Source: Flavobacterium proteolyticum
Lineage (GTDB): Bacteria; Bacteroidota; Bacteroidia; Flavobacteriales; Flavobacteriaceae
Reading direction: 5' to 3'
Length of the DNA stretch: 64,000 nt
Assembly: GCF_015223105.1 (NCBI RefSeq)
Contig: NZ_JADFTZ010000002.1
Coordinates: 310,001-374,000 of the forward strand
Position 1 is the stretch's first letter; the number at the start of each line of letters is the position of its first letter. This document shows positions 1 through 56,928 of the stretch, piece after piece. A program made the position numbers and the translations under genes. The notes under the pieces were generated by a model that was not told where the DNA came from, ran no database searches, and was given only the letters and a program-made list of their open reading frames with translations.

Positions 1-305
1 TATTCTAAAATCTTGATTCCCAACATCGGGTCATCAGTTTTGATTACTTTCCATATAGAACCCCAAATACAACTGTTTTGATAGGCTTCTGTGTTTTTTA
101 TAAAACCACAAAGTCCTACAATTTTATTATTTGTAACATCAATCGCTAAAGCGAAATTAATACGTTCTCCACATTGGTATTCGTAAAGAAAAAAAGACTT
201 ATTGGTTGCCAATAGATGACCTTCTTTCCAATTTTCATTAATGAAAGTCATTATAGCATCAACATCTTCTAATGTTGCAAAGCGTATGAGATGTTTGTCT
301 AACAT
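1..305 (-). CDS. GNAT-like acyltransferase, 3' end beyond window
   Basis: Partial gene: the first 101 residues are visible and the reading frame stays open to base 1, so the C-terminus lies outside the window. The start ATG is at 303-305 and overlaps the stop of the acyl carrier protein gene (299-301), showing tight coupling. The N-terminus (MLDKHLIRFATLEDVDAIM) has the beta1-alpha1 opening common to GNAT acyltransferases, and a strand near residues 60-69 (NKIVGLCGF) fits the GNAT core. GNAT enzymes move acyl groups from CoA or carrier proteins to amines. Beside an ACP and FkbH, a role in transferring the ACP-bound group to an amino sugar is plausible but not shown. The acetyl-CoA loop is not in the visible part. 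Confidence 0.6.
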   Translation of the reverse strand, partial: MLDKHLIRFATLEDVDAIMTFINENWKEGHLLATNKSFFLYEYQCGERINFALAIDVTNNKIVGLCGFIKNTEAYQNSCIWGSIWKVIKTDDPMLGIKILE

Positions 306-538
306 TTAGAACTAATACAAGCTACAATTGCACCTACATTTTCCCAACCTTGAATTTCCATAGTGGTAAATCGAATACCAAAATGATTTTCAAAAGCTAC
401 CACTAATTGAATATGTGTTAATGAATCCCAACCATCTACATCAGCTGCTGTGGTTTCATTAGTTAAAACGATGTCTTCGTTATCTAAAATATCAATAAAA
501 ATTGCATTAATATCTTTTAATATTTGTTCTCTTTCCAT
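299..538 (-). CDS. Acyl carrier protein
   Basis: A 79-residue acidic protein with the acyl carrier protein fold. The phosphopantetheine site is Ser39 in the motif DGWDSLTHIQLV, matching the carrier-protein consensus. It lies 2 bp downstream of a methyltransferase gene, which follows fkbH by 3 bp, and it overlaps the next GNAT gene. This setting differs from the fatty-acid ACP, which normally sits beside fabF. It suggests a dedicated carrier for a small acid, most likely a glyceryl group loaded by FkbH. The function as a carrier is secure from the motif; the cargo is inferred from neighbours. Confidence 0.9.
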   Translation of the reverse strand: MEREQILKDINAIFIDILDNEDIVLTNETTAADVDGWDSLTHIQLVVAFENHFGIRFTTMEIQGWENVGAIVACISSKC

Positions 539-540
539 AC

Positions 541-1443
541 TTATTGTTTCTTTATAAAAGCAGCATACATTACTGGTACTTTGAATTTTGCTGCTTGCTT
601 TTCTGTTATTTTTTCAGAAATTACAATTCTTTCTTCAATGATTTCAAAACCTGCCTGATTTAGCATATCTCTAATTTCAGTTTCATTGTGAAACAAATAA
701 ATATGATCAATCATTGGGGCATTAATTGGAGTAGTAATATAACAAACTCCATCTTTATTTAACAATTGGTTGATTTTATTCAACAAATTCAGCGGTTCTT
801 CTACATGCTCTAACACCTCACCCATGGTAATAAAATCATAGGTTTCACTTTCTCTAAAATCAAAAATATTTTTTAGAAAATAGTTTACTTGATTCGTATT
901 AATAATACCTTGTGCTAAATCTAATGAGCTTTGACTAATATCAACCAAATCAAATTTTTCGATATTCGTTAGCAAATTTACGGCTTCGTTCATATACAAA
1001 CCGTGTCCGCCACCAATTTCTAAATATTTTTTTCCGCCTTTAGCGTATTTATTAATGTTTTCAATAAAAAACAAAATGCGTTCATATTGATCAAACCAAA
1101 GAAATTGGGCCAAAACCAAACCATGCATGTGATACGTCATGATTTCGGGATTACCGTAGATTCTTTTTTCTACATCATCGAAAGAACTATTAGAATACTT
1201 TCCTTCTCTAATGAATTTGAATCGTTCTTCTAACATATCTTCAATCATATGAAGATAACAATCCACACCAAAATCGATTGATTTTTGATTACGCTCTAGA
1301 TATTCATTGTATTTATTGAAAAAAGAATTGGCTAAGTTTTCATAATCAGTACCATAACCTTCCAAATGAGCCACTAATTTTTCGTAATGCTTTGGATTTT
1401 TTGCTTTAATCTTATCTAATATAACCTTTAAAATGGTACTCAT
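541..1443 (-). CDS. Class I SAM-dependent methyltransferase
   Basis: A 300-residue protein with a class I methyltransferase domain in its second half. Motif I is YLEIGGGHGLY near residues 140-150, motif II is FDLVDIS, and the stretch DFITMGEVLEHVEEP fits motif IV with the usual EVLEH. The N-terminal ~130 residues are helical and do not match a domain I recognise. It lies between fkbH (3 bp gap) and the ACP gene (2 bp gap). In FkbH-containing pathways a methyltransferase often O-methylates the glyceryl or hydroxymalonyl group on the ACP, so methylation of the carrier-bound acid is a reasonable guess. A sugar O-methyltransferase role is the alternative. Confidence 0.8.
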   Translation of the reverse strand: MSTILKVILDKIKAKNPKHYEKLVAHLEGYGTDYENLANSFFNKYNEYLERNQKSIDFGVDCYLHMIEDMLEERFKFIREGKYSNSSFDDVEKRIYGNPEIMTYHMHGLVLAQFLWFDQYERILFFIENINKYAKGGKKYLEIGGGHGLYMNEAVNLLTNIEKFDLVDISQSSLDLAQGIINTNQVNYFLKNIFDFRESETYDFITMGEVLEHVEEPLNLLNKINQLLNKDGVCYITTPINAPMIDHIYLFHNETEIRDMLNQAGFEIIEERIVISEKITEKQAAKFKVPVMYAAFIKKQ

Positions 1444-1446
1444 AAA

Positions 1447-3177
1447 TTATTCATGTGACTTCAAAGTGATGTAATTGGTTCTTTCTTTATATGCTTTCAA
1501 TGGTAAAAACCAGAAATCATTTTCTTGCTCAAAACCTAAATTTTGATAATGATTTTTTACAATTTCGTTTTTTGGAGTTGGAATATATTCACCTATAATA
1601 CGTTCAAAACCATTCGCTTTTGCATACGCTGTTAAAGTATTCAACATAAAGTTTTCCATTCCGCGTTTTAATACACGACAACTCATAAACCAAGACTCAA
1701 TAAACAAATCTGTTTCGCTATTCTTCTTTAAAACAACAACTGCTATCAAACCATTATCCCCAAATTTATCTTCAAGGGTAAAAGCAAAAGTAGCATATTC
1801 ATTGGATTTTGCAAGATTTTCGATATCCGATTCGGTATAACGAACAGTTCTTAAATTAAATTGATTAGATCGTTGCGATAATTGGGCGACCCTTGGAATA
1901 TTAAATTTAGTAAAAGAAGCGACTACAGAAATCATATCCAAACTTTTCAAAAAATCATCTTCGTTTGTAAACTTCTGTTTGGTAACCGTGCGTTGCGCTT
2001 CTATTTGATACAATTTAGTACGTTCTTTATCTTCATCTGAAAAGGAATTGGTTTCAAATAAATTTAAAGTATACAGGTATTCTAAATATTCCGCTGGGTC
2101 TTCAGGTAACTCGGGAACCGTAATTCCAGATATATTTTCTCGTACTAAATTACGTTCGAAAGGATTATCATCCAAAAAAACCATAGAATCAAAACCTATA
2201 TTTAAAATGCGTTGAATATCTCTAATATTATCGGCTTTGTTTTCCCAATTGGCAATAAAAACGGAAATATCTTCCAATCGTAACACCATATCCGGATGCT
2301 TTTCAAAAGGTTCTTTTGCAATTGATTCTGTATTTTTACTACAAACGGCAACAATAATCCCTCTATTTTTAAGCTTTTTAATCCAATATTGAAATTCAGT
2401 AAATGCTTTTCCAATTCCCAAACTTCCAATTTGAACATTCTCTATACCATCATCACCGATAATTCCTCCCCAAACAGTATTGTCTAAGTCGAGAATAACA
2501 CATTTTTTCAACTTCCCATTTAGTACGCTTAAGATGTCAACAGTTTTCTGAGCTACTAATGGTAGCACATTTAAACTTAAAACCATTTCAGTACTAATGT
2601 AAACTGAAGTATGAAAAAAATTGGCTTTTCCCACTTGATTTTGAATGGTAGCTAAATCGCAGATATAAAAATTTGTAGTTCGATTTGCGATATGCATTAA
2701 CTCGAAATTTAACTTTCGAAGTTGGTATAAAAATGATGTTTCCGTTTTAGTAGCATAACTTCCAAAAACGGCATCATCGATTTCATTATAGTTGTAATAA
2801 ATGATTTTAGCGGTTGAATTCGAAGAAATATTAGCAACAATAGCCTCAATATTTTCAATTTCTCTCGTTGCTAAACTTGATTGTTGTTCGACTTTAAGTT
2901 TGTTGTACTTGTTTAGCAATTTATGAGAAGACAAAAAAAGTACAATGATATCAGGTTGAAAGGCATACATTTCGGAATCAGAATTAAATACCTGCATTTC
3001 AATTTGGTTAAAATCAGCTTCCCAAATTTGCAAATCTAATTCCGCATCAAAACCTTCACCACGGATAGCTTGAGACAAAAACTGAGTGGAAGTATCTCCT
3101 AATATGGCTACTTTTAAAGACTTAAATCCTGAAAAATCCTTTTTTAAATTTTTCCTCAATTGAGAAAAATCCTTCAT
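1447..3177 (-). CDS. FkbH-like HAD-family glyceryl transferase
   Basis: A 576-residue protein with the three-part FkbH layout. The N-terminal ~220 residues form the FkbH/SGNH-like region (ILGDTST at 25-31). A HAD domain follows, with its catalytic motif DLDNT at 230-234 in CVILDLDNTVWGG and a later FLDDNPFER motif. The C-terminal part is GNAT-like, with the segment SCRVLKRGMENFML. FkbH proteins take the glyceryl group from 1,3-bisphosphoglycerate, remove phosphate and place the acid on an ACP. The stand-alone ACP encoded two genes downstream fits this directly. Length is normal for the family. The chemistry is known for the family; the final acceptor here is unknown. Confidence 0.88.
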   Translation of the reverse strand: MKDFSQLRKNLKKDFSGFKSLKVAILGDTSTQFLSQAIRGEGFDAELDLQIWEADFNQIEMQVFNSDSEMYAFQPDIIVLFLSSHKLLNKYNKLKVEQQSSLATREIENIEAIVANISSNSTAKIIYYNYNEIDDAVFGSYATKTETSFLYQLRKLNFELMHIANRTTNFYICDLATIQNQVGKANFFHTSVYISTEMVLSLNVLPLVAQKTVDILSVLNGKLKKCVILDLDNTVWGGIIGDDGIENVQIGSLGIGKAFTEFQYWIKKLKNRGIIVAVCSKNTESIAKEPFEKHPDMVLRLEDISVFIANWENKADNIRDIQRILNIGFDSMVFLDDNPFERNLVRENISGITVPELPEDPAEYLEYLYTLNLFETNSFSDEDKERTKLYQIEAQRTVTKQKFTNEDDFLKSLDMISVVASFTKFNIPRVAQLSQRSNQFNLRTVRYTESDIENLAKSNEYATFAFTLEDKFGDNGLIAVVVLKKNSETDLFIESWFMSCRVLKRGMENFMLNTLTAYAKANGFERIIGEYIPTPKNEIVKNHYQNLGFEQENDFWFLPLKAYKERTNYITLKSHE

Positions 3178-3202
3178 ATTGCTATTTTAATAGTGTAACT
3201 TC

Positions 3203-4117
3203 TTACGGTTTATAATTCTTACCTCCTACTACATCATTGCAATCAAATCGGTTCAAAAGCAATTTATTTTGAGATTTCTCGATAATCCCTTTCTTTGTAG
3301 TAAAACCATACAAATATCCGACTTTTTTAGCAGTTTCAGCCACTAAATCAGTACAAGCTTCTGGCGTTCCATAAGGATAAGCAATCATTTGGATAGCTTT
3401 ACCCGATAGTTGTTCCAAATAGTTTTTACTATGCTCTAATTCATAAATCAATTTATCTTCACGCAACAATCCTAATGGATAATGTGTATGCGTATGACTA
3501 CCTAAACAATCTATATTTGCCAAATACTGCAATTGTGACTTCGACATGTATAGCGATTCTAAAATTTCACTTTCTAAAAAATGCTTTTCAAAAATTGATT
3601 GCACTAACAATTCTTGTACATCAAATGAGATTTTAAAATTAAGCAAATACTTTAATTCTGCACTCGCTGTATCATCAAATCTGTAATTGGTTGTAGCTTT
3701 TTGCAATTCTTCTTGTGTTAGCATCGCAATCTTCTGCTCTTTTAGATAATCCAACAACAAATGAGATGGAATAACCGAACGCAATAAATGAATTTTATGC
3801 ACCGTACTCACGCGACCTTCCTCAGTATTCATGGAATTGGCAAAGAAAATAGCCTGCATACCCAATTCATCTAAAATGGGAAGAGCAAAATCGAATTGTT
3901 CTTTTAAACCATCATCGAAAGTGATAAAGAAAAAATTATCTTTTGAAACAACCAATTCCTCATAATTTGCCAAAAACTCAGAAGGTGTAATCAAATCACC
4001 TTCATTTTTAAACAATTTCAACTGCTTTTTAAATGCTGTCGGAGTAACTCCAAAAATACTCGGATAAGGAGCAGAATAATCTTCCCTTATGTAATGATAA
4101 TTACTTACGGTTAGCAT
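3203..4117 (-). CDS. Polysaccharide deacetylase (NodB/CE4 domain)
   Basis: A carbohydrate esterase 4 enzyme that would remove N- or O-acetyl groups from a glycan. Motif 1 is TFDDG with the Asp pair near residues 68-69, motif 2 is SHTHTH giving His208 and His212 (HxxxH metal ligands), and AYPYG forms motif 3. The spacing between motifs 1 and 2 (~140 residues) is longer than in minimal NodB domains, so an insertion is present. I chose the ATG at 4115-4117 (304 residues, MLTVSNYHYIRED), a start common in this subfamily, over a TTG nine codons upstream. It overlaps the end of the preceding SGNH gene by 17 bp. No signal peptide is obvious, so it may act on a cytoplasmic precursor. Confidence 0.85.
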   Translation of the reverse strand: MLTVSNYHYIREDYSAPYPSIFGVTPTAFKKQLKLFKNEGDLITPSEFLANYEELVVSKDNFFFITFDDGLKEQFDFALPILDELGMQAIFFANSMNTEEGRVSTVHKIHLLRSVIPSHLLLDYLKEQKIAMLTQEELQKATTNYRFDDTASAELKYLLNFKISFDVQELLVQSIFEKHFLESEILESLYMSKSQLQYLANIDCLGSHTHTHYPLGLLREDKLIYELEHSKNYLEQLSGKAIQMIAYPYGTPEACTDLVAETAKKVGYLYGFTTKKGIIEKSQNKLLLNRFDCNDVVGGKNYKP

Positions 4118-4997
4118 TTCGAATGGTATTAAATTGGACAGCAAAATCTTGGGAACATTGGGCTCTACCTAAACTATTCACGTGCAAATTATCATAAAAT
4201 AAGGAATCTACCGAAATAAAATCGGAATGATTTACAAAATAATCTTTTGTAGTAACTTGTACCGAATTTTTATATAATGGCGATTGGTATAAAACCAATG
4301 TAATGCCATTCTTTTGACAAAAATCTTTTATTTTTTTGAAATAAGGATTCTTAAATTGTATTGCTGTAGTCGTTACTTCTGCTTGTAATGGAGCTCCTAA
4401 ATTGGGATAACTATAATTTCCTTTTTCATCAAATCGATTACGCTTTTCTGGTTTCAAAATGGTGAATAAAGAAGGATAAAAAAGTTCCGTATTGTAATAA
4501 CTAACTCCCACCAAAGGGAAATAAGTAGCATATTTTAAAACAGGAAATCCTTCGTAAGGAATAGATTGGTAATACCCGCTAACAGCCTTTGTATTGCGTT
4601 CTGATAAAAAGCGATAATCGTTATTATTCAAAACTGGATTTTCATTGGCTAAATCCCAAGGCGTTACTGCTAAAACCAGATAATCCGTTGTTTTTTGTTG
4701 TTGGTAGAAAAATTGCAACATCAAATAATGAGAACTCAAAGCGGAATCATCCATACTAATATTCAAGCCCTTTGTTTTTAATTTTTCGTCAATTAATTTC
4801 GTGTCTAACGTAGTTAATCCTGTGCTAGAACCTAATACCACATAATCAAAATGCTTTTCTTTTACACCGTTTTTGACAAATTGAGGTTTGTATAAATTCG
4901 ATTTTCCAATGAAATATAAAGACAGCCATGCGATTCCATTTCCAATCAAAAGAATGAAAAAAGTATAAAGTACGATTTTGGTTAAAAACTTTTTCAT
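4101..4997 (-). CDS. SGNH-like membrane-anchored protein, pair 1
   Basis: A 298-residue protein with one N-terminal membrane segment (about residues 8-30) and a periplasmic SGNH/AlgJ/DltD-like domain. The nucleophile block is GSS at 56-58 in YVVLGSSTG, and the C-terminal Asp-His pair is D269xxH272 in YDNLHVN. It starts in a TAATG overlap with the MBOAT gene upstream. Such proteins partner with MBOAT acyltransferases (AlgI/AlgJ, PatA/PatB, DltB/DltD) and complete transfer of an acyl group to a polysaccharide outside the inner membrane. Both catalytic motifs are intact here. Sequence matches to named families are weak, so the assignment rests on motifs and on pairing. Confidence 0.75.
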   Translation of the reverse strand: MKKFLTKIVLYTFFILLIGNGIAWLSLYFIGKSNLYKPQFVKNGVKEKHFDYVVLGSSTGLTTLDTKLIDEKLKTKGLNISMDDSALSSHYLMLQFFYQQQKTTDYLVLAVTPWDLANENPVLNNNDYRFLSERNTKAVSGYYQSIPYEGFPVLKYATYFPLVGVSYYNTELFYPSLFTILKPEKRNRFDEKGNYSYPNLGAPLQAEVTTTAIQFKNPYFKKIKDFCQKNGITLVLYQSPLYKNSVQVTTKDYFVNHSDFISVDSLFYDNLHVNSLGRAQCSQDFAVQFNTIRNANRK

Positions 4998-6424
4998 TAG
5001 AATTGAAAATAAATAAAGTCCATTTGATTTTTAAAACTGCCCATAAAGAAAATCAACAACACTAAAAGCAAAGCTCCAAAAGCGGAGATTTTAGGCAATT
5101 CTCTTTTTTTAGTCACCCAAAGTAATTCTTGCATACTTAAAATTCCGACTGCCAATACACTTAGTGCAAAAATCATCAAATTAGCATTAGTTTTATAGAA
5201 TAAGGATAATCCTAAATTTTTCAATTCAAATAGATGCGCTAAATACTGAAAAGCATCTGATATAGAATCTGCTCTAAAAAATACCCAACCGATGCAAACT
5301 ACTAAAAAGGTTAAACCAATTTTAGCAAAATCGAGCCAACCATAAGATTTGGTAATCAAGTGACTTCTATTTATGTTGAAAAGTAATAATGGTAAAAATA
5401 GTAAGGCATGAAATAAACCCCAAACTACATAAGTCCAGTTGGCACCATGCCAAAAACCACTTACCAAAAAGATAATCATCACGTTTCGAATTTGAAACAC
5501 TTGCGAACCTTTTGAACCCCCAAGTGGAATATAAATGTAATCGCGAAACCAAGTAGATAATGAAATGTGCCAACGACGCCAAAATTCTGCGATATCGCGT
5601 GAGAAATAAGGAAACTTAAAATTCACCATTAAATCAAATCCAAAAAGTTTGGATAATCCAATAGCGATATCTGAATATCCTGAAAAATCCCCATAAATTT
5701 GAAAAGCGAAGAATACCATTCCTACAAACAATTCACCACTGGAATACGCTTCTGGATTTTCAAAAATTTTATTGACAAAAAAAGCACAGTTATCTGCTAC
5801 TACAACCTTTTTGAACATTCCCCAAATAATCAATTTGACACCGTCCACCGCGTTTTGATAATCAAAAGTTCGGTTTTTATAAAACTGAGGTAATAAATGC
5901 GAGGCTCGTTCAATTGGTCCCGCTACTAACTGTGGAAAGAACGTAACAAAAGCAGCAAAATCGATGAAACTTTTTGTAGGTTCCATTTCCTTTCGGTACA
6001 CATCAATGGTGTAACTCAATGTTTGGAAGGTATAAAATGAAATCCCTACGGGAAGTATAATATTTAAGGTACTGGCTTCCATGGTAATTCCGACACTTGA
6101 CCAAGCTTCTATCCAACTTGCCACAAAAAAATTGTAATACTTAAAGAATCCTAACATTCCCAAGTTCCCGACCAAACTAATTCCTAATAGCAATTTTCGC
6201 TTTTTGGAAATGGCTGTTTTTCCTAATTGAATCGCAACAAAATAATCTAGAAAAGTACTTGCAATAATTAAAGATAGAAAACGCCAATCCCACCAACCGT
6301 AGAAAATATAACTGGCTACCAACAACAATATATTTTGTGCTCGCAATTGGTTTTTAAATACAAACCAATACAAGAAAAAAACAGTAGGTAGAAAAAGTAA
6401 AAATTCTAACGAGTTAAAAAGCAT
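4997..6424 (-). CDS. MBOAT-family O-acyltransferase, pair 1 (AlgI-like)
   Basis: A 475-residue multi-pass membrane protein of the MBOAT family, AlgI/DltB type. The signature region FWRRWHISLSTWFRDYIYIP includes His286, and the catalytic-type His is His326 in SGFWHGANW. Length matches AlgI (about 460-520). MBOAT proteins carry an acyl group from a cytoplasmic donor across the membrane toward a periplasmic glycan, with an SGNH partner. The partner gene follows in a 1-bp TAATG overlap. It is one of three colinear MBOAT copies in this operon and the most diverged of the three by eye (for example GSKGSQ instead of GSQGGM after the signature). Confidence 0.93.
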   Translation of the reverse strand: MLFNSLEFLLFLPTVFFLYWFVFKNQLRAQNILLLVASYIFYGWWDWRFLSLIIASTFLDYFVAIQLGKTAISKKRKLLLGISLVGNLGMLGFFKYYNFFVASWIEAWSSVGITMEASTLNIILPVGISFYTFQTLSYTIDVYRKEMEPTKSFIDFAAFVTFFPQLVAGPIERASHLLPQFYKNRTFDYQNAVDGVKLIIWGMFKKVVVADNCAFFVNKIFENPEAYSSGELFVGMVFFAFQIYGDFSGYSDIAIGLSKLFGFDLMVNFKFPYFSRDIAEFWRRWHISLSTWFRDYIYIPLGGSKGSQVFQIRNVMIIFLVSGFWHGANWTYVVWGLFHALLFLPLLLFNINRSHLITKSYGWLDFAKIGLTFLVVCIGWVFFRADSISDAFQYLAHLFELKNLGLSLFYKTNANLMIFALSVLAVGILSMQELLWVTKKRELPKISAFGALLLVLLIFFMGSFKNQMDFIYFQF

Positions 6425-6427
6425 GTA

Positions 6428-7306
6428 CTATTTTTTAAATAAATCTTCAATAATTTTTGCGGTGTACAACCTAGCTCCTTTATCATTCAAATGGCCACAA
6501 GATGAAAAGTATTGATCTCCCTCCACTACATGTTCGTACTCTTTAATTTCAGGATACAACGCTTTTACTTTTTTAAAGTAATCCATTCCTTTTACATTAG
6601 AACACATTGGAGTTGTAACGGCAATTAAATTGATATGATTAGTTTTACAAATTTGCTTAATTTCTTCGAAATAACGGTTACGTAAAGGCACTAAACTTTC
6701 AATATTATTTTTCATATTGGCCTTAGGATTAAATCCAAGAGGATAATATCCGTTATTAGACAAAGTATTGGTTGGTTCGTTTACCAATGTTTTATACCAA
6801 GCTCTAAAACCTACTTTAGCATCAAATTGTATGTAACGATAAAACGGCACATAATACAATTCGGTAAAATCGGGTTCGTTTTTAAAATGTTTCGTTATAG
6901 TTTTCGATTGGTGCATAAAAGGCATAAAGCGACCGAAAGTACCATCATCACGTTTTTCGTTGGATAAATTCAAATCGGTTTCTACGATTACATTTTTTAT
7001 TTTCCATCCTCTTTCAACCATCAATTTTAAAAGTAATGAAGTTTCAAACAAATGGGCGCCACTCATTCCATAATTAAAGGTTTTCAGACCTTCTTTTTCA
7101 AACAATTCGGATACAAAATGATTATTGGCTCTAGAAGTTCCTAAAATAATCACATCATAGTTTTGTGGTTTCGAATTGATAACGTGTTCCACTTTATTTC
7201 GAGTTTCCGATTGCGCAAAAACAGTAGTATAAATAAAATCCAATGCAAAAGCAGAGAGCAAAAGCACCAACAAAATTTTCCCTATAAAGATTAAAAACTG
7301 TTTCAT
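6428..7306 (-). CDS. SGNH-like membrane-anchored protein, pair 2
   Basis: A 292-residue protein with an N-terminal membrane segment (about residues 5-30) and an SGNH-like domain. The nucleophile block is GTSRANNH starting at residue 56, the same position as in pair 1. At the C-terminus the His is His272 (CGHLNDKG), but the residue three before it is Ser269 rather than Asp, so the usual DxxH pair is not conserved in place. It lies in a TAATG overlap with MBOAT 2 and 3 bp before MBOAT 1. The likely role is the periplasmic partner of MBOAT 2. The altered DxxH may mean another Asp is used (Asp264 is near) or that activity differs. Confidence 0.72.
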   Translation of the reverse strand: MKQFLIFIGKILLVLLLSAFALDFIYTTVFAQSETRNKVEHVINSKPQNYDVIILGTSRANNHFVSELFEKEGLKTFNYGMSGAHLFETSLLLKLMVERGWKIKNVIVETDLNLSNEKRDDGTFGRFMPFMHQSKTITKHFKNEPDFTELYYVPFYRYIQFDAKVGFRAWYKTLVNEPTNTLSNNGYYPLGFNPKANMKNNIESLVPLRNRYFEEIKQICKTNHINLIAVTTPMCSNVKGMDYFKKVKALYPEIKEYEHVVEGDQYFSSCGHLNDKGARLYTAKIIEDLFKK

Positions 7307-8739
7307 TAGAATTGGAAATAAATAAATTCTTTATAATCGGAATACACACCTAAAGCCAATAAAGCTAAAATCGCTAAAGTTACTTTAAGCCAACTTGCCT
7401 TTCCTGATAAAGGCTCTACTTTGGTACGATTGAACCATTCTACAAATACAAAAACCAATACCAAAAATAGCAATTCAAAACTATAACGTTCGTTACTCAA
7501 ATACTGCGAATCAAAATGGAAATCGGTTACCATTTTTTGGATATACCCAATAGCTTCTGAAATAGATTTGGCTCTGAAGAAAATCCAAGCAATAGTGGTT
7601 AAAACAAACGTGCCTAAAATATTTAAAATGGTTTTTACGCTATTGAAATCCCAACTCATTACAATTTCGCCCATATTAGAACGATTCTTATTTTGTAACA
7701 ACAAAGGCAAGAAGTAAATCGCATTCAACAAACCCCACACAATAAACGTCCAATTAGCGCCATGCCAGAATCCGCTCACTAAGAAAATGATGAAGGTATT
7801 TCGCACTTTCATACACATACCACCTTGACTTCCGCCTAACGGAATGTACAAATAATCACGAAACCATGATGATAATGAGATATGCCAACGACGCCAAAAT
7901 TCGGCAATATCTCTGGAAAAATAGGGATAATTGAAATTCTTTAATAAATCGATTCCAAATAATTTTGAGGTTCCTAATGCAATATCAGAATACCCTGAAA
8001 AATCGCCATAAATTTGGAAAGCAAAATAGACCGCTCCTAATATTAAGGATAACGAATTCATGGACTCGTAATTATCAAAAACAGCATTAGCATAAGTAGC
8101 ACAACTATCCGCAATTACTACTTTTTTGACCAGTCCCCAAATAATTTGACAAACCCCTTCTTTGGCTTTTTCAAAATTAAAATAACGTTTGATTTTCACT
8201 TGCGGTAATAAGTGCGTCGCTCTTTCAATAGGCCCAGCTACTAAAAGCGGAAAGTAACTCACGAATAACGAGTAATCGATAAAATTGCGTTCGGCAGTAA
8301 TGCGTTTGTAATAAATATCAATCACATACGACAAGCCGTGAAACGTATAAAAGGATATTCCAACAGGAAGAATCAATTTCAATAAAACAGGATTGGTTTG
8401 AACTCCGAAACCATGCAACAAATCGGCAAAAGATTGCGCAAAGAAATCATAGTATTTGAAAACACCTAAAAATCCTAAATTGATTCCAATAGTCAACCAC
8501 AACCAAAACTTTCGCTTTTTATCGGTCGTACTGGTTTCCATCATAATGGCACTGAAGTAATCCAACAAAGTAGAAAACACCAATAAAAACAGAAAACGCC
8601 AATCCCAACACGAATAAAAATAATAACTCGCTACAATTAATACCGCATTTTGCGTGGTTTTGTTTTTATTAAAAACGAACCAATACAGTAAAAATACAAT
8701 GGGTAAAAATATAGCGAAGGATAAGGAGTTGAAAAACAT
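7306..8739 (-). CDS. MBOAT-family O-acyltransferase, pair 2 (AlgI-like)
   Basis: A 477-residue multi-pass MBOAT protein. It shares residue numbering with the other two copies: His286 in FWRRWHISLSSWFRD and His326 in SGFWHGANW. It is closer to copy 3 than to copy 1 (both have LGGSQGGM, KVRNTFIIFL and HGLSYVIDIY). The start ATG at 8737-8739 sits directly after a fragment of a neuC-like 3' end, which shows that this gene once followed another neuC allele. The expected role is acyl transfer to a surface polysaccharide with the downstream SGNH protein. Confidence 0.93.
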   Translation of the reverse strand: MFFNSLSFAIFLPIVFLLYWFVFNKNKTTQNAVLIVASYYFYSCWDWRFLFLLVFSTLLDYFSAIMMETSTTDKKRKFWLWLTIGINLGFLGVFKYYDFFAQSFADLLHGFGVQTNPVLLKLILPVGISFYTFHGLSYVIDIYYKRITAERNFIDYSLFVSYFPLLVAGPIERATHLLPQVKIKRYFNFEKAKEGVCQIIWGLVKKVVIADSCATYANAVFDNYESMNSLSLILGAVYFAFQIYGDFSGYSDIALGTSKLFGIDLLKNFNYPYFSRDIAEFWRRWHISLSSWFRDYLYIPLGGSQGGMCMKVRNTFIIFLVSGFWHGANWTFIVWGLLNAIYFLPLLLQNKNRSNMGEIVMSWDFNSVKTILNILGTFVLTTIAWIFFRAKSISEAIGYIQKMVTDFHFDSQYLSNERYSFELLFLVLVFVFVEWFNRTKVEPLSGKASWLKVTLAILALLALGVYSDYKEFIYFQF

Positions 8740-8811
8740 TTAATTATCTCTAAATTGTTTTTGATGATTTAGTTGCCAAATATCGGGTATTTCTTTGAAT
8801 TGAGAAACTAT
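8740..8811 (-). pseudogene. Remnant of the 3' end of a second neuC
   Basis: Read on the minus strand, this short stretch encodes ...FKEIPDIWQLNHQKQFRDN followed by TAA at 8740-8742. The intact neuC ends ...NEDIWQLNHQKQFRDS. Thirteen residues in a row (DIWQLNHQKQFRD) are identical and the frame is preserved, while the residues before them differ. An in-frame stop at 8812-8814 precedes the fragment. Both the remnant and the intact neuC end lie immediately before an MBOAT start codon. The simplest reading is that a block containing neuC, an MBOAT gene and an SGNH gene was inserted by recombination, or duplicated, leaving the tail of the older neuC behind. Confidence 0.85.
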
Positions 8812-8830
8812 TTAAAGAATTAGAAAAACA

Positions 8831-9787
8831 CTATTTGATTGTATTGTGCTTTACAATTTCATCTTGAACCAATTGTTCGGGATTAGAACTTTCAACAAGT
8901 CCTTTCTTGAGCAAAGCATCAAAAAATAATGAGAATTTCTTAGCACCTTTATAATTTAAGTGCTCTAAATCGGCATAATCATCATTTAACAAATAGAAGT
9001 TTTCAAAATCTAAATAAAACAGTTGTGAATATCTAGTTTTTAAATTTTTTTGTAATTGTTCTTCATTTTCACAATAAGCATATTTGGGGTGTTGTGGCGA
9101 TCTTATTAAAAATAATTGGATTCCTCTTTTTTTACAAATCGATGCTATTTTATCAACAAAGGGTAGATTAGTAGTATCGACTACTATTTTCGTAGAGTTA
9201 AGTTTTTTCTGCTTTTCATTACTTTTAATAATGGAATCTACTTTCTGTCTAGGGTTGGCATAAAAACTACCCCAATCACGTTGATCCAATATGTTTTTTT
9301 TTCGATATAACAGAAAATTTAAATTATTCTTGATAACCATTTCTTGGGATTTAAAATAACTCCATGGATTCTGTTTTATCAAAAAAGAATGATCCTCAAA
9401 AGTCATAACGGGAGCAAAATTGGGAATATTCACAAGATTTTTTTGAGTATCTTCAATCCACTTAGTCATATCAGTAGAAATCTGATTATTAGTAAGTTCT
9501 AAAAAAACTACTTTAACATTTGGATTGGATTCTATAATTTTTTTTGCTTTTAAATAAGTATAAAAATAATGTTCTCCACCTCTAGCAAAATTTTTTGTTT
9601 TTTGAATTACAGAATCATTAAAAGCTTCTTCAGGATGTGAGTGACCTAGTACAATATACGCGTAATTTTTATCAATTGAAAAATTGGAATCTTTATTAAT
9701 TAAAATGTTGGATGACACAATAATCCCAATTAACATTATGAATGTCAATAAAGAAAAAACAAATATTCTTTTAATAAATCTTTTCAT
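8831..9787 (-). CDS. SGNH-like membrane-anchored protein, pair 3
   Basis: A 318-residue protein with a strongly hydrophobic N-terminal anchor (about residues 7-30) and an SGNH-like domain. The nucleophile block is GHSHPEE with Ser50, and the C-terminal pair is D273xxH276 in DLEHLNYKGA. I start it at the ATG at 9785-9787, which directly gives MKRFIKRIFVF; the TTG one codon earlier is less likely. The gap to the upstream MBOAT gene is 3 bp. It has a charged C-terminal tail of about 25 residues that the other two copies lack. The probable role is the periplasmic partner of MBOAT 3. Confidence 0.74.
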   Translation of the reverse strand: MKRFIKRIFVFSLLTFIMLIGIIVSSNILINKDSNFSIDKNYAYIVLGHSHPEEAFNDSVIQKTKNFARGGEHYFYTYLKAKKIIESNPNVKVVFLELTNNQISTDMTKWIEDTQKNLVNIPNFAPVMTFEDHSFLIKQNPWSYFKSQEMVIKNNLNFLLYRKKNILDQRDWGSFYANPRQKVDSIIKSNEKQKKLNSTKIVVDTTNLPFVDKIASICKKRGIQLFLIRSPQHPKYAYCENEEQLQKNLKTRYSQLFYLDFENFYLLNDDYADLEHLNYKGAKKFSLFFDALLKKGLVESSNPEQLVQDEIVKHNTIK

Positions 9788-9790
9788 CAA

Positions 9791-11227
9791 TTAAAATTGA
9801 AAATATATAAAATTCTGCTCCTTGGCACCAAAATAAATCAACATCAAAATCAGGAACAGATAAAAACTCCATCTAAAAATAACATACCAACTCTTTCCAA
9901 AATTAGCTATCGCATAATTATTTTCTCTTCCTAACCATTCCATCAATAAAAAACAGCCACAAAGTAATAGTTCCATTTTGGGTAAATTCTCAGGTATCGA
10001 AAGTATAGAATTTGAAAAAATCCCTTTTAAATACAAAAAAGCTTGGCTAACAGATGCTGCTCTAAAAAATATCCAGGCTATTACGGTAAGACCAAAAGTT
10101 AATAGAATATGGCAAAAATCTTTAACTGAAGGCAAAAATTTCCCTTTTGCTACAATCTCTAAATTATTTCTATTCGTGTTTAAAATAATAGACGGCATAA
10201 TATAAAGGGCATTTAATGCGCCCCAAACGATAAAAGTCCAATTAGCACCGTGCCAAAAACCACTGACTAAAAAGATAATAAAGGTATTTCTAACTTTCAT
10301 CCACATGCCGCCTTGACTTCCACCTAAAGGAATGTATAAATAATCGCGAAACCAAGTAGATAATGAAATGTGCCAACGACGCCAAAACTCGGCAATATCT
10401 CTAGAAAAATAAGGATAATTAAAGTTTTTCAATAATTCTATTCCTAATAATCTAGAACTTCCTAAAGCAATATCCGAGTAACCCGAAAAATCACCATAAA
10501 TCTGAAAAGCAAAAAACACAGCTCCTAAAACTAGGCTACTACCCGAATGGCTTTCAGGATTGTCAAAAATCGCATTAGCATAAAGAGCACAATTATCAGC
10601 TATTACTACTTTTTTAATCAACCCCCATAAAATTTGTCTTAGCCCATCTACCGCATTATAATAGGAAAAATCTCTTTTCTTTTTTAATTGAGGTAACAAG
10701 TGAGTCGCTCTTTCAATTGGACCTGCTACCAATAAAGGAAAATAACTCACAAATAATGAGTAATCGACAATATTACGCTCAGGTTCGATACGATTTTTAT
10801 AAATATCAATCACATAAGACAAACCATGAAACGTGTAAAAAGAAATACCAACAGGTAGAATAATTTCAAGTGTTCCTATATTTACCTGAAAACCAAAATG
10901 GCTTAAAAAATCAGCAAATGATGCAGCAAAAAAATTATAATATTTGAAAACACCTAAAAAACCTAAATTAACAACAACGCTTAACCAGAACCAAAATTTC
11001 TTACTTTTTATCGTTGATGCATCATACATCTTTAGCCCTGTGTAGTAATCTAGTCCAGTAGAGAAAATAAGCAAAAATAAAAACCGCCAATCCCAACAAG
11101 CATAAAAATAATAACTTGCAATTAGCAATAAAATATTTTGAAGTTTTAAGGACTTATTATTAGCCCACCAGTAAATAATAAATACTATGGGTAGAAAAAT
11201 AAAATACTGTAGGGTATTAAAAAGCAT
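9791..11227 (-). CDS. MBOAT-family O-acyltransferase, pair 3 (AlgI-like)
   Basis: A 478-residue multi-pass MBOAT protein with FWRRWHISLSTWFRDYLYIP (His286) and SGFWHGANW (His326). It is very similar to copy 2 through the core (residues ~120-340) and diverges near the C-terminus, as expected for paralogues with different substrates. Its ATG overlaps the neuC stop codon by one base (TAATG), so the two are translationally coupled. The expected function is O-acylation of the exported glycan, and the coupling to neuC makes a nonulosonic acid residue a candidate acceptor. Confidence 0.93.
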   Translation of the reverse strand: MLFNTLQYFIFLPIVFIIYWWANNKSLKLQNILLLIASYYFYACWDWRFLFLLIFSTGLDYYTGLKMYDASTIKSKKFWFWLSVVVNLGFLGVFKYYNFFAASFADFLSHFGFQVNIGTLEIILPVGISFYTFHGLSYVIDIYKNRIEPERNIVDYSLFVSYFPLLVAGPIERATHLLPQLKKKRDFSYYNAVDGLRQILWGLIKKVVIADNCALYANAIFDNPESHSGSSLVLGAVFFAFQIYGDFSGYSDIALGSSRLLGIELLKNFNYPYFSRDIAEFWRRWHISLSTWFRDYLYIPLGGSQGGMWMKVRNTFIIFLVSGFWHGANWTFIVWGALNALYIMPSIILNTNRNNLEIVAKGKFLPSVKDFCHILLTFGLTVIAWIFFRAASVSQAFLYLKGIFSNSILSIPENLPKMELLLCGCFLLMEWLGRENNYAIANFGKSWYVIFRWSFYLFLILMLIYFGAKEQNFIYFQF

Positions 11228-12351
11228 TAACTATCTCTGAATTGTTTTTGATGATTAAGTTGCCAAATATCCTCATTTAATAAGGATTTCAAAAACAACT
11301 CGGCACTATTTCCTTTTCCAAAATCACTTTCTGTTGGTTGTACTTTATGAGTATCTATAACATTCAGAGCATTAGAAATACTTTCTGATGTATAATCTAC
11401 ATTGATGATATCGGCGTGAAGGGCTCTATTTTGTTGTCGTGTACCGATATTGATAATGGGTAAACCATAATAAGGAGCTTCTCTAATACCCGCACTACTA
11501 TTTCCAATAATGAACTGAGATTTTTTTAATAGAGTTAAAAAATATTCAAAACGCAACGATGGAAAAACTCGAAAACGAGGATTTCCTTTTAATCTTTCAT
11601 ACGCTTTTAAAATGGTTTGACTCCCTAAATCGTTATTAGGATATACGACTACATAATTATGATGATCCGCTAATAAAGCTTCTACAAAATTGTCTGCGTA
11701 TTCTTGCATGAATTTGGCTTCTGTTGTCACTGGATGAAACATTGCCACTGCATATTTATCATATGCAATTTCATAATACTTTTTAGCAGTTTCTAAATCG
11801 GGTAATGTATTAGAAAACATAATATCTACATCCGGAGAACCGATTGTAAAAATAGCATTTTCTAATTCGCCCATTTGAATCAAACGTTTTTTGGCTTGTT
11901 TATTAGAAACAAAGTGAACGTGACTCATTTTACTAGTGGAGTGACGGATTAACTCATCGATAGTTCCAGAAACTTCACCTCCTTCAATATGCGCTACTAA
12001 AATGTTATTCAAACTTCCTACAATCGCACCAGCTAAGGCTTCCACTCTATCTCCATGAATGACAATCATATCAGGCTCACAAGATTTTACATAAGTAGAA
12101 AGTCCTTCAATGGTCTTCGCTAAAGTCAAATCCATCGTGGTTTCGTGCGTGTGATTTTCGAATGTATGAATATTAGTAAATCCACATCGTTCTACTTCTA
12201 GCAAAGTATAACCATATTCTTTTTGCAAATGCATACCTGTAACAAAAATAAATGGTTCAAATTCGGGATGTGCTTCCAAAATTTGAATCAAGGATTTTAT
12301 TTTACCAAAATCGGCACGAGTACCAGTAAGAAATAGGATTTTTTTGGACAT
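11227..12351 (-). CDS. neuC: UDP-GlcNAc 2-epimerase (hydrolysing), NeuC type
   Basis: Converts UDP-GlcNAc to ManNAc and UDP, the first step of sialic acid synthesis in the cytoplasm. The protein begins MSKKILFLTGTRADFGKIKS; the TRADFGK motif is typical of NeuC/NnaA enzymes and replaces the TRPE motif of the non-hydrolysing WecB type. HIEGGEVSGTIDELIRHSTSKM and SFIIGNSSAGIREAP-like segments (IGNSSAGIREAPYYG) are also family hallmarks. I use the ATG at 12349-12351 (374 residues) rather than a TTG eight codons upstream. It lies between neuB and an MBOAT gene. Its 3' end is duplicated at 8740-8811. Confidence 0.9.
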   Translation of the reverse strand: MSKKILFLTGTRADFGKIKSLIQILEAHPEFEPFIFVTGMHLQKEYGYTLLEVERCGFTNIHTFENHTHETTMDLTLAKTIEGLSTYVKSCEPDMIVIHGDRVEALAGAIVGSLNNILVAHIEGGEVSGTIDELIRHSTSKMSHVHFVSNKQAKKRLIQMGELENAIFTIGSPDVDIMFSNTLPDLETAKKYYEIAYDKYAVAMFHPVTTEAKFMQEYADNFVEALLADHHNYVVVYPNNDLGSQTILKAYERLKGNPRFRVFPSLRFEYFLTLLKKSQFIIGNSSAGIREAPYYGLPIINIGTRQQNRALHADIINVDYTSESISNALNVIDTHKVQPTESDFGKGNSAELFLKSLLNEDIWQLNHQKQFRDS

Positions 12352-12404
12352 TTTTTGTATGCTATCGTGTTGCAAATATAGGATTTTTGGTTAATGATTA
12401 TACA

Positions 12405-12453: not shown

Positions 12454-13494
12454 TTACTCAAAATCCCCAAAATCCAATTGCTCGTCATTGGCAATAGCTC
12501 TTGTAGCTTTTTTTCCTAACAACGAATCAAAATGCTCTGCTAAAATTTTTCCGGTTCCTGGACGTTTGACCCAAATGTTTTCTTTCGTTAACACTTCTCC
12601 TTTTTGGATAGAAGCAATAGAACAAACCGTTGCAAAAGCGAAATCAATAGTCACTTGTTCTTCGTCCGCTGGTTTTTTTGTTCCGCCACGCATTTGCGCC
12701 ATCTCGGCACTATTAATGATTAATTCTTTACACGCTTGTTCATCCATACTACATACAATGTCTGGACCTGTTCGGTTCATGTGGTCAGTAAAATGGCGCT
12801 CTAAAATGGATGCTCCTAAAGCTACTGCTCCTAAACATGCGTTATTATTTAGGGTGTGATCAGACAATCCAAAAACTTTATTAGGGAACGCTTGATGCAT
12901 TTCCATCATAGCACCAAATCGTACTAAATGAATTGGTGTGGGATATAAATTCGTAGTATGCAATAACGCTACTGGAATATTATGTTTGTCAAAAACAGCT
13001 ACTGCCTTTTGAATACTTTCTATGGTATTCATGCCCGTACTTAAAATGACTGGTTTCCCAAAAGAGGCAATATGCTCTAATAAGGGATAATTATTACATT
13101 CTCCCGAACCAATTTTATAAGCTGGAATATCAAACTTTTTCAAACGTTCGGCCGCAGCACGAGAGAAAGGAGTTGAGATAAAAATCATGCCTTTGCTTTC
13201 CACATAATTTTTTAATTCGAGTTCTTCTTCTTCGTTTAAAGCACAACGCTCCATAATTTCATAAATAGACACATCAGCATTGCCTGGAATGACTTTTTTA
13301 GCGGCACCACTCATTTCGTCTGCTACGATATGGGTTTGGTGTTTCACCACCTCAACGCCTGATCTGTGTGCAGCATCTACCATTTCTTTGGCTACTTGAA
13401 GCGAACCTTCATGATTAATACCGATTTCAGCGATAACTAATGGTGGAAAATCGGGTCCTATTTTTCTTCCTGCTATTTCTATGTAGGGATTCAT
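12454..13494 (-). CDS. neuB: N-acetylneuraminate synthase
   Basis: Condenses phosphoenolpyruvate with ManNAc to give N-acetylneuraminic acid. The 346-residue protein has the NeuB TIM barrel ([13 protein letters not shown] near the N-terminus, [18 protein letters not shown]) and a C-terminal SAF/antifreeze-like domain (about residues 290-346, WVKRPGTG). The stretch [20 protein letters not shown] resembles the true Neu5Ac synthases such as E. coli NeuB rather than the PseI type (GPDHRASLEP). That points to Neu5Ac or a close analogue; legionaminic acid cannot be fully excluded. It is the middle gene of neuA-neuB-neuC. Confidence 0.92.
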
Positions 13495-13505: not shown

Positions 13506-14171
13506 TTAGTGATTGGTTTTATTTAAAAGAAATTCTGCGTAATCAAAATCTTCTTGTGTATCGATATCTACATTAGCAAAAGGATGATTTACTTCCAACG
13601 GAAAAGCTTCTTTTGTAATGATTTCATTATTTAATATTACAGATGCTTTTGCAATATAAAGCAACCCATTTTCGTAATATAAAGGTTCTAAGTCTTGACT
13701 GCGTTGCCCTACTTCATAATTGTAAGGAATGAATTTATGGTTTGTAATTTTTCCTAATTTATGATGACTGCGCGAAACGGTAAACAAACTATCTACTTGT
13801 TGCTCTTGAAAAATCGTAAAAGCTTCTTGTACTAGATTTTTTGGTCGTAAGGGATTGGTAGCTTGTAATAATATTACATTTTCAACTGCTCCATCAATGG
13901 ATTCTAAAACATGCTTTAAAGCTGAAACAGTGGGTTCCAAATCGCCTGAAATTTCTTGAGGTCTATCAATTACGATAGCACCATATTGCAAAGCTATTTC
14001 TTTTATAGCCACGTCATCTGTGGAAACGTAAACCTCATCAATAAAATCATGCTCTTTCGCATACAAAATACTGTGAGCAATAAGAGGAATTTCGCCTAAT
14101 AACTTTATGTTTTTTCCGGGTAAGCGTTTTGATCCTCCTCGTGCTGGTATTATGGCTATGGTCTTACTCAT
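13506..14171 (-). CDS. neuA: CMP-N-acylneuraminate cytidylyltransferase
   Basis: Activates the nonulosonic acid with CTP to give the CMP-sugar used by transferases. The 221-residue protein opens with the nucleotide-binding motif [15 protein letters not shown] and contains [12 protein letters not shown] and LLQATNPLR, all standard for the NeuA/LegF/PseF family. The gap to neuB is 11 bp. With neuB and neuC it completes the route from UDP-GlcNAc to a CMP-activated sialic acid. There is no C-terminal O-acetylesterase domain of the type found on E. coli NeuA. Confidence 0.93.
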
Positions 14172-53797: not shown

Positions 53798-54013
53798 TTA
53801 GTATCTATAAGTAATTCTTGCTTTAGACAAATCGTAAGGGCTCATCTCAAGTTTAACCTTGTCACCTGGCAACAACTTAATGTAATGCATACGCATTTTA
53901 CCAGAGATATGAGCAATTACAACGTGCCCGTTTTCTAATTCTACACGAAACATAGCATTTGATAATGCTTCAATAATTGTTCCGTCTTGTTCTATTGCTG
54001 ATTGCTTTGCCAT
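53798..54013 (-). CDS. infA: Translation initiation factor IF-1
   Basis: A 71-residue OB-fold protein that binds the 30S A site during initiation. It matches IF-1 along its length: [47 protein letters not shown] and a C-terminal [14 protein letters not shown]. It lies 5 bases after secY and 10 bases before rpmJ. Confidence 0.99.
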
Positions 54014-54018
54014 AAAAA

Positions 54019-55362: not shown

Positions 55363-55374
55363 TTTACTAAAGGA

Positions 55375-55827
55375 TTATAAAGTTACAGCTTCTCCACCAG
55401 CAGCCTCGATAGCCGCTTTTGCAGATGCAGTAAATTTGTGAGCACTTACTTTAAGTTTTGTTTTTAGCTCACCTCTTCCTAAAATCTTTACTAAGCTATT
55501 TTTTGTAGCTAAACGAGTATCTACAAATACAGAAAAATCAACTGTATCAGTTACTACACCGTTATCTACTAATAATTGTAACGAATCAAGATTAATACCT
55601 TGATATTCTACTCTATTGATGTTCTTGAAACCAAACTTAGGAACACGTCTTTGAAGTGGCATTTGACCTCCTTCAAAACCAATTTTCTTAGAGTATCCAG
55701 AACGAGACTTAGCTCCTTTGTGACCACGTGCAGCAGTACCACCTTTACCAGAACCCTCTCCTCTACCTACTCTTTTATTTTGGTTGTGAACTGAACCTTC
55801 AGCTGGTTGTAAGTTACTTAAATTCAT
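55375..55827 (-). CDS. rplO: 50S ribosomal protein L15
   Basis: A 150-residue L15, a late-assembling 23S rRNA binder. The N-terminal half is the glycine/arginine-rich extension (NKRVGRGEGSGKGGTAARGHKG) and the C-terminal half has the globular L15/L18e fold (ILGRGELKTKLKVSAHKFTASA). It precedes secY by 12 bases. Confidence 0.99.
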   Translation of the reverse strand: MNLSNLQPAEGSVHNQNKRVGRGEGSGKGGTAARGHKGAKSRSGYSKKIGFEGGQMPLQRRVPKFGFKNINRVEYQGINLDSLQLLVDNGVVTDTVDFSVFVDTRLATKNSLVKILGRGELKTKLKVSAHKFTASAKAAIEAAGGEAVTL

Positions 55828-55839
55828 AACTGTATAGTG

Positions 55840-56022: not shown

Positions 56023-56035
56023 GATTTCCTGTTAA

Positions 56036-56560: not shown

Positions 56561-56566
56561 AATTTC

Positions 56567-56917: not shown

Positions 56918-56928
56918 AGTCTTAATTT

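Follow-up and report, generated by a model that had tools for sequence, protein, structure and literature searches.

The closest described systems to the locus examined here are the synthesis of a glyceroylated nonulosonate in Campylobacter jejuni, the Dlt system (DltA, DltC, DltB, DltX and DltD) and the O-acetyltransferases of the PatA/PatB and AlgI/AlgJ types. The locus lies at the start of a 64,000-nucleotide stretch of the genome of Flavobacterium proteolyticum (family Flavobacteriaceae, phylum Bacteroidota; contig NZ_JADFTZ010000002.1, positions 310,001 to 374,000), which we call the window, and it joins an FkbH-type protein, a methyltransferase and an acyl carrier protein (ACP) to a deacetylase, three pairs of an MBOAT and an SGNH protein, and genes for nonulosonate synthesis. 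The explanation that we favor, and to which we give an even chance, is that a sugar is deacetylated and N-(O-methyl)glyceroylated in the cytoplasm, while the three MBOAT/SGNH pairs carry out a separate O-acylation.

The flagellin of C. jejuni is described as carrying 5-(2,3-di-O-methylglyceroyl)amino-pseudaminic acid, which a Cj1295 mutant lacks; Cj1295 is thought to remove the N-acetyl group first, and a gene with an fkbH domain, cj1302, lies in the same locus (PMC3068675, PMC7099621). The window resembles that locus, as judged by published descriptions, in having an FkbH-domain gene, a proposed removal of an N-acetyl group and nonulosonate synthesis: its FkbH, ACP and methyltransferase stand beside nonulosonate genes, with the MBOAT/SGNH pairs and the deacetylase between NeuC and FkbH. 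In C. jejuni, genes for an ACP, a methyltransferase and an N-acyltransferase presumably lie between Cj1295 and Cj1302. The glycan differs, being a flagellin O-glycan in C. jejuni, whereas the window holds the locus of an ABC-exported polysaccharide.

The window shares with the Dlt system a carrier protein, DltB-related MBOATs, a C-terminal FxYxxF shuttle and SGNH partners. It differs in its loader, which is FkbH and not DltA, in the fusion of the shuttle motif to the MBOAT, and in MBOATs that have no carrier-docking segment and fall outside the carrier-linked clade. In PatA, the Tyr of a C-terminal hexapeptide is auto-acetylated and passes its acetyl to the SGNH partner (PMC12148441). Like the O-acetyltransferases of the PatA/PatB and AlgI/AlgJ types, the MBOATs of the window have a fused hexapeptide (FIYFQF), an SGNH partner and no adjacent carrier protein; unlike them they come as three tandem pairs, for which acetyl-CoA would probably be the donor.

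The train runs on the minus strand from a NeuA-like gene through NeuB, NeuC, the three MBOAT/SGNH pairs, the deacetylase, FkbH, the methyltransferase and the ACP to a 340-residue protein that is cut at the window's edge. The initial annotation had named FkbH with its DLDNT motif, the methyltransferase, the ACP with Ser39 and three MBOAT plus SGNH pairs, and all of these are indeed present, as follows (W1 to W3 denote the three MBOATs).

1..305, minus: start of a 340-residue protein, putative GNAT-like N-acyltransferase; entire gene at L005:17283-18305; no family match
299..538, minus: stand-alone ACP, Ser39; PF00550, E 3.5e-6
541..1443, minus: S-adenosylmethionine-dependent methyltransferase, proposed to O-methylate carrier-bound glyceryl; PF13489, E 1.7e-18
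1447..3177, minus: FkbH-type glyceryl transferase/phosphatase; TIGR01686, 308 bits; PF21211
3203..4144, minus: protein of the polysaccharide deacetylase family, proposed cytoplasmic sugar N-deacetylase; PF01522, E 2.3e-15
4101..4997, minus: SGNH1, partner of MBOAT1; GSS...DNLH motifs; AlphaFold model
4997..6424, minus: MBOAT1 (W1), YIPLGG segment, C-terminal FIYFQF; PF03062; outside clade D
6428..7306, minus: SGNH2, partner of MBOAT2; Ser and His kept, no Asp at His-3
7306..8739, minus: MBOAT2 (W2), YIPLGG segment, C-terminal FIYFQF; PF03062; outside clade D
8831..9790, minus: SGNH3, partner of MBOAT3; GHS...DLEH motifs
9791..11227, minus: MBOAT3 (W3), YIPLGG segment, C-terminal FIYFQF; PF03062; outside clade D
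11227..12375, minus: NeuC, hydrolysing UDP-GlcNAc 2-epimerase; TIGR03568, 419 bits, above cut-off
12454..13494, minus: NeuB, nonulosonate (N-acetylneuraminate) synthase; TIGR03569, 401.7 bits, barely above the cut-off of 399.65
13506..14171, minus: NeuA-like CMP-nonulosonate synthetase; TIGR03584, 146.6 bits, below cut-off

Carrier-linked MBOATs and those of the window

Related loci were collected by scanning contigs with an alignment of five FkbH sequences, and the best 80 of at least 564 confirmed stretches were kept, so that the rates given here hold for that subfamily alone. Five further loci and the window bring the set to 86 loci (L015, on the same contig as L030, was dropped, and L007-L014, with short flanks, are uncounted), which are not independent and include near-copies such as L088/L095 and L080/L083. 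As controls we used loci anchored on NeuB, one from each of 20 of the 41 NeuB-positive genomes of the family, chosen for long contigs. An ACP gene lies within 6 kb of FkbH on the same strand at 84 of the 86 loci, the window included, as against none of the 20 controls; an MBOAT gene lies within 6 kb at 65 of 86, again with the window, as against one of 20, and both occur at 65 of 86. The association of FkbH with ACP and MBOAT is therefore not due to chance. A full 6 kb on both sides of FkbH is available at 65 of the 86 loci, and 51 of those have an MBOAT. The gene set highlighted by the initial annotation thus recurs elsewhere, its FkbH and MBOAT modules occurring together, most often in the orders FkbH-ACP-MBOAT-SGNH, FkbH-ACP-VOC-MBOAT-SGNH, FkbH-methyltransferase-ACP-VOC-MBOAT-SGNH and FkbH-ACP-MaoC-SDR-MBOAT-SGNH.

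The MBOATs that accompany FkbH and ACP are, for the most part, of another lineage than W1-3. In a tree of 107 MBOAT rows, which excludes reading frames below 400 residues (L031_13676, L108) and in which the contig-end MBOAT pieces of L050 and L051 are absent, 57 rows from 56 loci form a clade, here called D, with a support of 94 (99 for a core of 56 rows). Fifty-three of these rows lie downstream of FkbH within 6 kb and three upstream, one of them being the ligase-ACP one of L017; the last, in L058, belongs to an ACP-MBOAT-SGNH block on the opposite strand beside FkbH. W1-3 and 22 other rows make up a separate clade with a support of 98. Nine of the 22 stand in FkbH loci and 13 do not lie within 6 kb of an FkbH gene, and 11 of these 13 come from genomes without an FkbH match at 1e-30. 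Within FkbH and NeuB loci an ACP is encoded within 1.5 kb of 52 of the 57 D rows but of none of 16 rows of the window clade. Both clades return in a careful tree of 31 rows (100/96 for D, 98/91 for the window clade). Forcing D and W1-3 together is rejected (p 1.4e-7), as are D with W2 (p 0.021) and D with W3 (p 0.0019) in a quick tree of 51 rows, and D with W1 (p 0.004) and D with W3 (p 1e-45) in the careful tree.

A D row is present in 55 of the 65 FkbH loci with an MBOAT, the other ten being the window, L018, L021 (where the contig ends 1.3 kb past FkbH), L031 (with a split gene), L050 and L051 (contig ends), L032, L036, L073 and L086. Both kinds of MBOAT are found in L037, L068, L075, L088 and L095, where it is the D-type that follows FkbH, the other kind being an extra pair upstream or further downstream, and where the ACP gene lies between FkbH and the D-type MBOAT or, in L037, before FkbH.

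The two lineages differ visibly in the stretch between the two active-site His. Thirteen alignment columns, two of them outside the DltB segment used, separate clade D from the window clade, and the DltB letter (or K for R) is kept by D in seven and by the window clade in two. The stretch reads F-M-R-L-V-I-V-L-M-R-N in DltB, F-M/T-P-L-x-I/V-x-F-R in the D-type and Y-I-P-L-G-G-S followed by a gap in W1-3, so that D-type and DltB have in common F-M-x-L, then a hydrophobic part and then an R, where W1-3 have YIPLGG and a deletion. According to a study of DltB, Met302, Val305, Ile306 and Met309 of its helix HC contact Met36 and Val39 of DltC (PMC11035591), and counting residues from His289 and His336 places these contacts within the stretch. 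A segment resembling the DltC-docking one is thus kept in the D-type and absent from W1-3. A YIPLGG-like motif, which we take to resemble that of AlgI, occurs in none of the 57 D rows. Of the 25 rows of the window clade 22 have it, or all 25 if the pattern is loosened, and so do 12 of the 25 rows outside both clades.

We also looked at the flanks of 59 MBOAT loci from genomes of the family (L101-L129 and L156-L185, the latter being the best matches to a D-type MBOAT), of which 56 could be classified with the looser pattern and no filter for open reading frames. An ACP gene lies within 1.5 kb of six of the seven MBOATs of the F..R type, as against none of 45 of the LGG type and none of four others; the test is partly dependent on the preceding one, for L166, one of the six, is also in the FkbH set. 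The seventh F..R MBOAT, without ACP, is probably L124, which is unclassified under the stricter pattern, and outside both clades two further rows of the F..R type (L029, L035) have no ACP within 1.5 kb. The residues between the two His would offer a means of telling carrier-fed MBOATs from CoA-fed ones by sequence. Two simpler discriminators were discarded. The E-value alone does not identify the D-type, as a D-type query matches 205 of 397 genomes of the family at 1e-80, and the segment motif and ACP neighborhood were used instead; similarity to DltB over the whole segment gives group medians of 108.5 and 91.5 but a score of 106.5 bits for W1, and is indecisive for a single protein.

As to the pairs themselves, W1-3 match PF03062 (E 5.6e-30 to 3.6e-29), and each has His326 in a GFWHG motif and FIYFQF at its C-terminus, so that both the catalytic His and the FxYxxF shuttle of Dlt-type MBOATs are found. 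None of SGNH1-3 matches a Pfam family; GxS and a C-terminal His are, however, invariant in an alignment of 18 SGNH rows, which supports the SGNH identity of the window proteins. SGNH2 is missing the Asp three residues before the His, and so are L021:2323-3303, L037 and L068:18209-19117. The AlphaFold model of SGNH1 (mean predicted local distance difference test score 70.7) has an N-terminal helix, and its best PDB matches are SGNH hydrolases, headed by TesA at E 4e-3 with none at 1e-3; an entry named DltD (7dxm) ranks 37th. The ACP, although part of the same train, is about 4.4 kb or more away from W1-3, which have no carrier protein adjacent. Four MBOATs were found in the host genome (2.83 Mb, 99.94% complete), none of them in clade D; the fourth (L006:4427-8806) lies about 80 kb from the locus, outside clade D, with two GDSL proteins, one of which has a LysM domain.

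The initial annotation had proposed that one or more of the MBOAT/SGNH pairs take glyceryl from the ACP in the manner of DltB. This finds no support, given the position of W1-3 outside the FkbH-ACP clade, their lack of a DltB-like docking segment, the FkbH-less genomes of 11 of their 22 clade-mates and the absence of a D-type among the four MBOATs of the genome, and we have set a simple Dlt-like reading of the window aside.

The loader and its probable acceptor

The loading half of that annotation, in which FkbH and ACP, with the methyltransferase, would provide O-methylglyceryl, agrees with the families we find. The window FkbH matches FkbH_N of Pfam (E 3.4e-73) and TIGR01686 (308 bits against a cut-off of 146.65), its DLDNT is intact at residues 230-234, Ser39 of the ACP sits in DGWDSL, and the methyltransferase alone stands between the two genes of the train. 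Within the family, FkbH has matches at 1e-30 in 8 of the 397 genomes searched, the window's included. Its sole match among solved structures is 3slr, the 'uncharacterized protein BF1531', an orphan that may correspond to the N-terminal portion of a glyceryl-loading FkbH. The cassettes of Bacteroidota with a clade-D MBOAT have homologous FkbH and ACP proteins, and some (L024, L031, L042, L075) encode, immediately behind FkbH, a methyltransferase that shares 46-56% identity with the window's (20% in L028); they differ in the D-type MBOAT itself and often in a VOC protein or MaoC and SDR proteins, which the window does not have.

From what is observed, namely gene content, families, motifs, clade membership and four MBOATs none of which is of the D-type, we infer which reactions take place, what the acceptor is and what the 340-residue protein does. 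The region would be part of a capsule or O-antigen locus and comprise two distinct modules. In the first, which would be cytoplasmic, FkbH would charge the ACP with glyceryl taken from 1,3-bisphosphoglycerate, and the carrier-bound glyceryl would be O-methylated by the methyltransferase. The deacetylase would expose an amino group of a sugar, the likeliest being the NeuC/NeuB/NeuA nonulosonate or a precursor of it, and to this group the 340-residue protein would transfer the (methyl)glyceryl of the ACP. In the second, the three MBOAT/SGNH pairs would use the Tyr of FIYFQF to bring an acyl group through the membrane and place it on hydroxyls of the exported glycan, the group being probably an acetyl supplied by acetyl-CoA. 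Because W1-3 stand outside clade D and have the YIPLGG segment, and because the fourth MBOAT is also non-D, the FkbH-methyltransferase-ACP loader more probably feeds the 340-residue protein, whose ATG overlaps the ACP stop codon by 7 nucleotides. N-(O-methyl)glyceroylation is favored since candidates for the C. jejuni steps lie in one train with NeuCBA, and it is plausible that the window is a new member of the C. jejuni kind. The second, cytoplasmic route of the initial annotation, deacetylation followed by N-glyceroylation, has thus fared better than its MBOAT route.

Only 101 residues of the 340-residue protein lie inside the window, and the gene that the initial annotation called a GNAT is certainly there; the label itself is unproven, for searches with the whole protein gave nothing in Pfam at E values up to 5, nothing in NCBIfam at values up to 1 and no sequence of relevance in the PDB. 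At 1e-8 it has no homologue in 396 other genomes of the family, and at 1e-5 a search of 394 other genomes of the phylum gave a single one, in genome G568 (locus L155), with 26% identity over 347 residues and likewise no Pfam or NCBIfam match. This homologue is directly followed by one of the window deacetylase (25% over 309 residues). Around the pair lie an AMP ligase, an SDR, a DegT aminotransferase, a WbuX amidotransferase and HisH (the last two above cut-off), as well as a HisF/WbuZ-like protein and a PseF-like cytidylyltransferase (both below cut-off). We read the G568 pair as a putative unit for deacetylation and re-acylation of a sugar, which we infer to be a nonulosonate. By eye, the window deacetylase has TFDDG, SHTHTH and AYPYG motifs and no visible signal peptide; the TTG start of the listed reading frame is probably upstream of the real one. 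No kinship can be recognized among the acyltransferase-like proteins that neighbor FkbH in the window, in L018 and in L020, and we claim no common family for them.

Several observations weigh against this explanation. The description of the 340-residue protein as an acyltransferase is a guess from its look and place, with no profile match behind it. The window deacetylase belongs to PF01522 and not to the family of Cj1295, which is given as PIRSF015244, aminopeptidase-like (PMC3068675), although the same step is proposed for both. No NeuB is encoded within 19.5 kb around the G568 pair, the three NeuB-family matches on that contig, one of them above cut-off, lying about 37 to 54 kb away; an FkbH search of G568 also gave no match, but neither did the control genomes, so that absence is not established. 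Turning to the MBOATs, L018, L032, L036, L073 and L086 depart from a strict rule in having FkbH-ACP with only non-D MBOATs within 6 kb: in L073 (LGG type) and L036 (neither type), whose MBOATs belong to neither clade, an ACP gene lies within 1.5 kb of the MBOAT, and in L086 an MBOAT of the window clade lies 2.4 kb downstream of FkbH. Because of these five loci, recruitment of non-D MBOATs by FkbH-ACP is possible. One quick 51-row tree does not reject D with W1 (p 0.53), nor does the careful tree reject D with W1 and L132 (p 0.073), L132 being the one NeuB control locus with an MBOAT, and no ACP, within 6 kb. Finally, the window FkbH falls in a group of four with those of L035 (no D), L040 (D) and L050 (cut), nested in a 29-row clade that holds 16 D loci, in a count where the split MBOAT of L031 was tallied as D without a tree test and left unmended. 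In view of this mixed part of the tree and a wider clade rich in D cassettes, the ancestor of the window FkbH may have served an MBOAT. Taken with the identity of the methyltransferases, the placement suggests that the FkbH-methyltransferase sub-cassette of the window may derive from a D-cassette system and have been re-routed later.

What the carrier-bound group is used for can perceivably be answered in other ways. One of the three pairs, most likely pair 1, might esterify the exported glycan with ACP-borne (methyl)glyceryl, FkbH taking the place of DltA and the ACP that of DltC. The genes do share a train, similar arrangements are common in relatives, W1 is by score the window MBOAT nearest to DltB and the one whose placement at the base of D is least easily rejected, and the five loci with non-D MBOATs only, L073 with its LGG-type near an ACP among them, show a comparable set. 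We nevertheless consider this unlikely in the light of the 107-row and careful trees, the YIPLGG that replaces the docking stretch, the 11 relatives from genomes without an FkbH match and the lack of ACP genes in the 1.5-kb flanks of all 45 LGG-type MBOATs of the family. A single ACP could also serve both routes, supplying the 340-residue protein for cytoplasmic N-acylation and one MBOAT/SGNH pair for O-acylation beyond the membrane. The train of L018 (9977-14909), with FkbH, ACP, a 353-residue protein without family match, an SGNH protein, an MBOAT of the window clade and a GNAT-domain protein (PF13480), has parts similar to the window's and would fit such a double use. The 353-residue protein stands there between FkbH and the MBOAT/SGNH pair, and the GNAT-domain protein beyond that pair; the 353-residue protein and the 340-residue one are, however, not recognizably related, and as all that speaks against transfer by an MBOAT applies here as well, we regard this as quite improbable.

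The product of FkbH and ACP might, alternatively, go elsewhere, to FucNAc, a 4-amino sugar, a lipid or a secondary product, the 340-residue protein and the deacetylase acting in a different step. The same locus does contain a UDP-FucNAc-like gene set and a DegT aminotransferase, and the occurrence of FkbH-ACP with a gene of the KASIII family in L015/L016 means that its uses vary; the operon order and the G568 pair point instead to N-acylation of a sugar, which makes this, too, an unlikely outcome. For the preferred N-(O-methyl)glyceroylation, the deacetylase, acyltransferase, FkbH and methyltransferase of the window are a concrete set of candidates for the synthesis of an N-glyceroyl sugar.

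FkbH cassettes beyond the window and the flanking genes

MBOAT/SGNH pathways other than Dlt are said to lack a carrier protein (PMC12148441). The 56 loci of clade D, with 52 of 57 rows near an ACP, suggest that this lack is not general. Nearly all of these loci are from Bacteroidota, and FkbH is the usual loader in this sample, which was itself drawn by FkbH. In a literature search that left most subscription papers outside, no paper contained both FkbH and DltB, and nothing relevant on FkbH or HAD with MBOAT and ACP appeared by title or abstract. The recurrent FkbH-ACP-MBOAT-SGNH cassettes would be a so far undescribed variety of Dlt-type acylation, as far as these searches reach.

Our broadest proposal, for and against which the arguments seem to us about equally strong, is that an undescribed class of carrier-fed MBOAT/SGNH systems exists in Bacteroidota and in a few organisms from other phyla. 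In these, FkbH or an AMP ligase would load the ACP; an optional methyltransferase, VOC epimerase or MaoC and SDR would tailor the glyceryl to methylglyceryl, an epimer or lactyl; and a DltB-like MBOAT with a fused Tyr shuttle would, with its SGNH partner, esterify surface glycans. The window would be a derived member that has lost this MBOAT and whose carrier has been re-routed to N-acylation in the cytoplasm. If true, this would tie central glycolysis, through 1,3-bisphosphoglycerate, directly to the acylation of surface glycans, and BF1531 (3slr), an orphan whose structure is solved, would gain a possible function.

In genome G070 (L017), a block of AMP ligase (PF00501), ACP, MBOAT and SGNH is directly followed by one of FkbH, ACP, MBOAT and SGNH, a tandem that makes the functional parallel of FkbH with DltA explicit. 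An AMP ligase, an ACP and an MBOAT of the F..R type occur together in L017:4296-8423, L156, L157, L158, L161 and L167, which are Dlt-like blocks in Gram-negative Flavobacteriaceae; an SGNH protein was seen in those of L017 and L167, the latter with a VOC-like protein as well.

The genes between ACP and MBOAT vary. L022:11459-12597 and other D cassettes have a MaoC-like dehydratase and an SDR there, which, on chemical grounds, could dehydrate glyceryl-ACP to pyruvyl and reduce it to lactyl-ACP; the MaoC profile built here matches SDR proteins too, which inflates the MaoC count, and we rely on the Pfam identities of ten proteins. A VOC-fold protein (Glyoxalase_4) takes this place in L042:13114-13494, L080:11969-12349 and L096:11980-12387 and could epimerize the alpha carbon of the carrier-bound acid. 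The MBOAT of L031:13411-14857, within a cassette of FkbH, methyltransferase, ACP and VOC, is in two reading frames, through a broken gene or a sequencing error. In some loci of Flavobacteriaceae (L015/L030, L016, L023 and L034) FkbH and ACP are joined by a KASIII-family gene (PF08541, checked in L016) with no MBOAT within 6 kb, and in L015/L030, L016 and L034 also by a hexapeptide protein; perhaps these loci represent another use of glyceryl-ACP, in a chain-extended N-acyl group.

The train belongs to a polysaccharide-type locus that runs, nearly all on the minus strand, from about 38.5 kb of the window to position 1 and beyond into the flank. Before the NeuA-like gene it encodes Wza-like and Wzc-like proteins, sugar dehydrogenases, a sugar phosphotransferase, an ABC-2 exporter, FnlABC-like proteins, several glycosyltransferases and an asparagine synthase. 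Past the window's edge comes first a 464-residue protein that matches the BFO_1060 glycosyltransferase family in part, scoring 44.8 bits where the cut-off is 200; a hexapeptide protein and then a GT4 protein follow. At its other side the locus is adjoined by a ribosomal-protein operon (54000-64000 of the window), in which SecY, S3 and L2 are identified by Pfam and the remainder by gene size.

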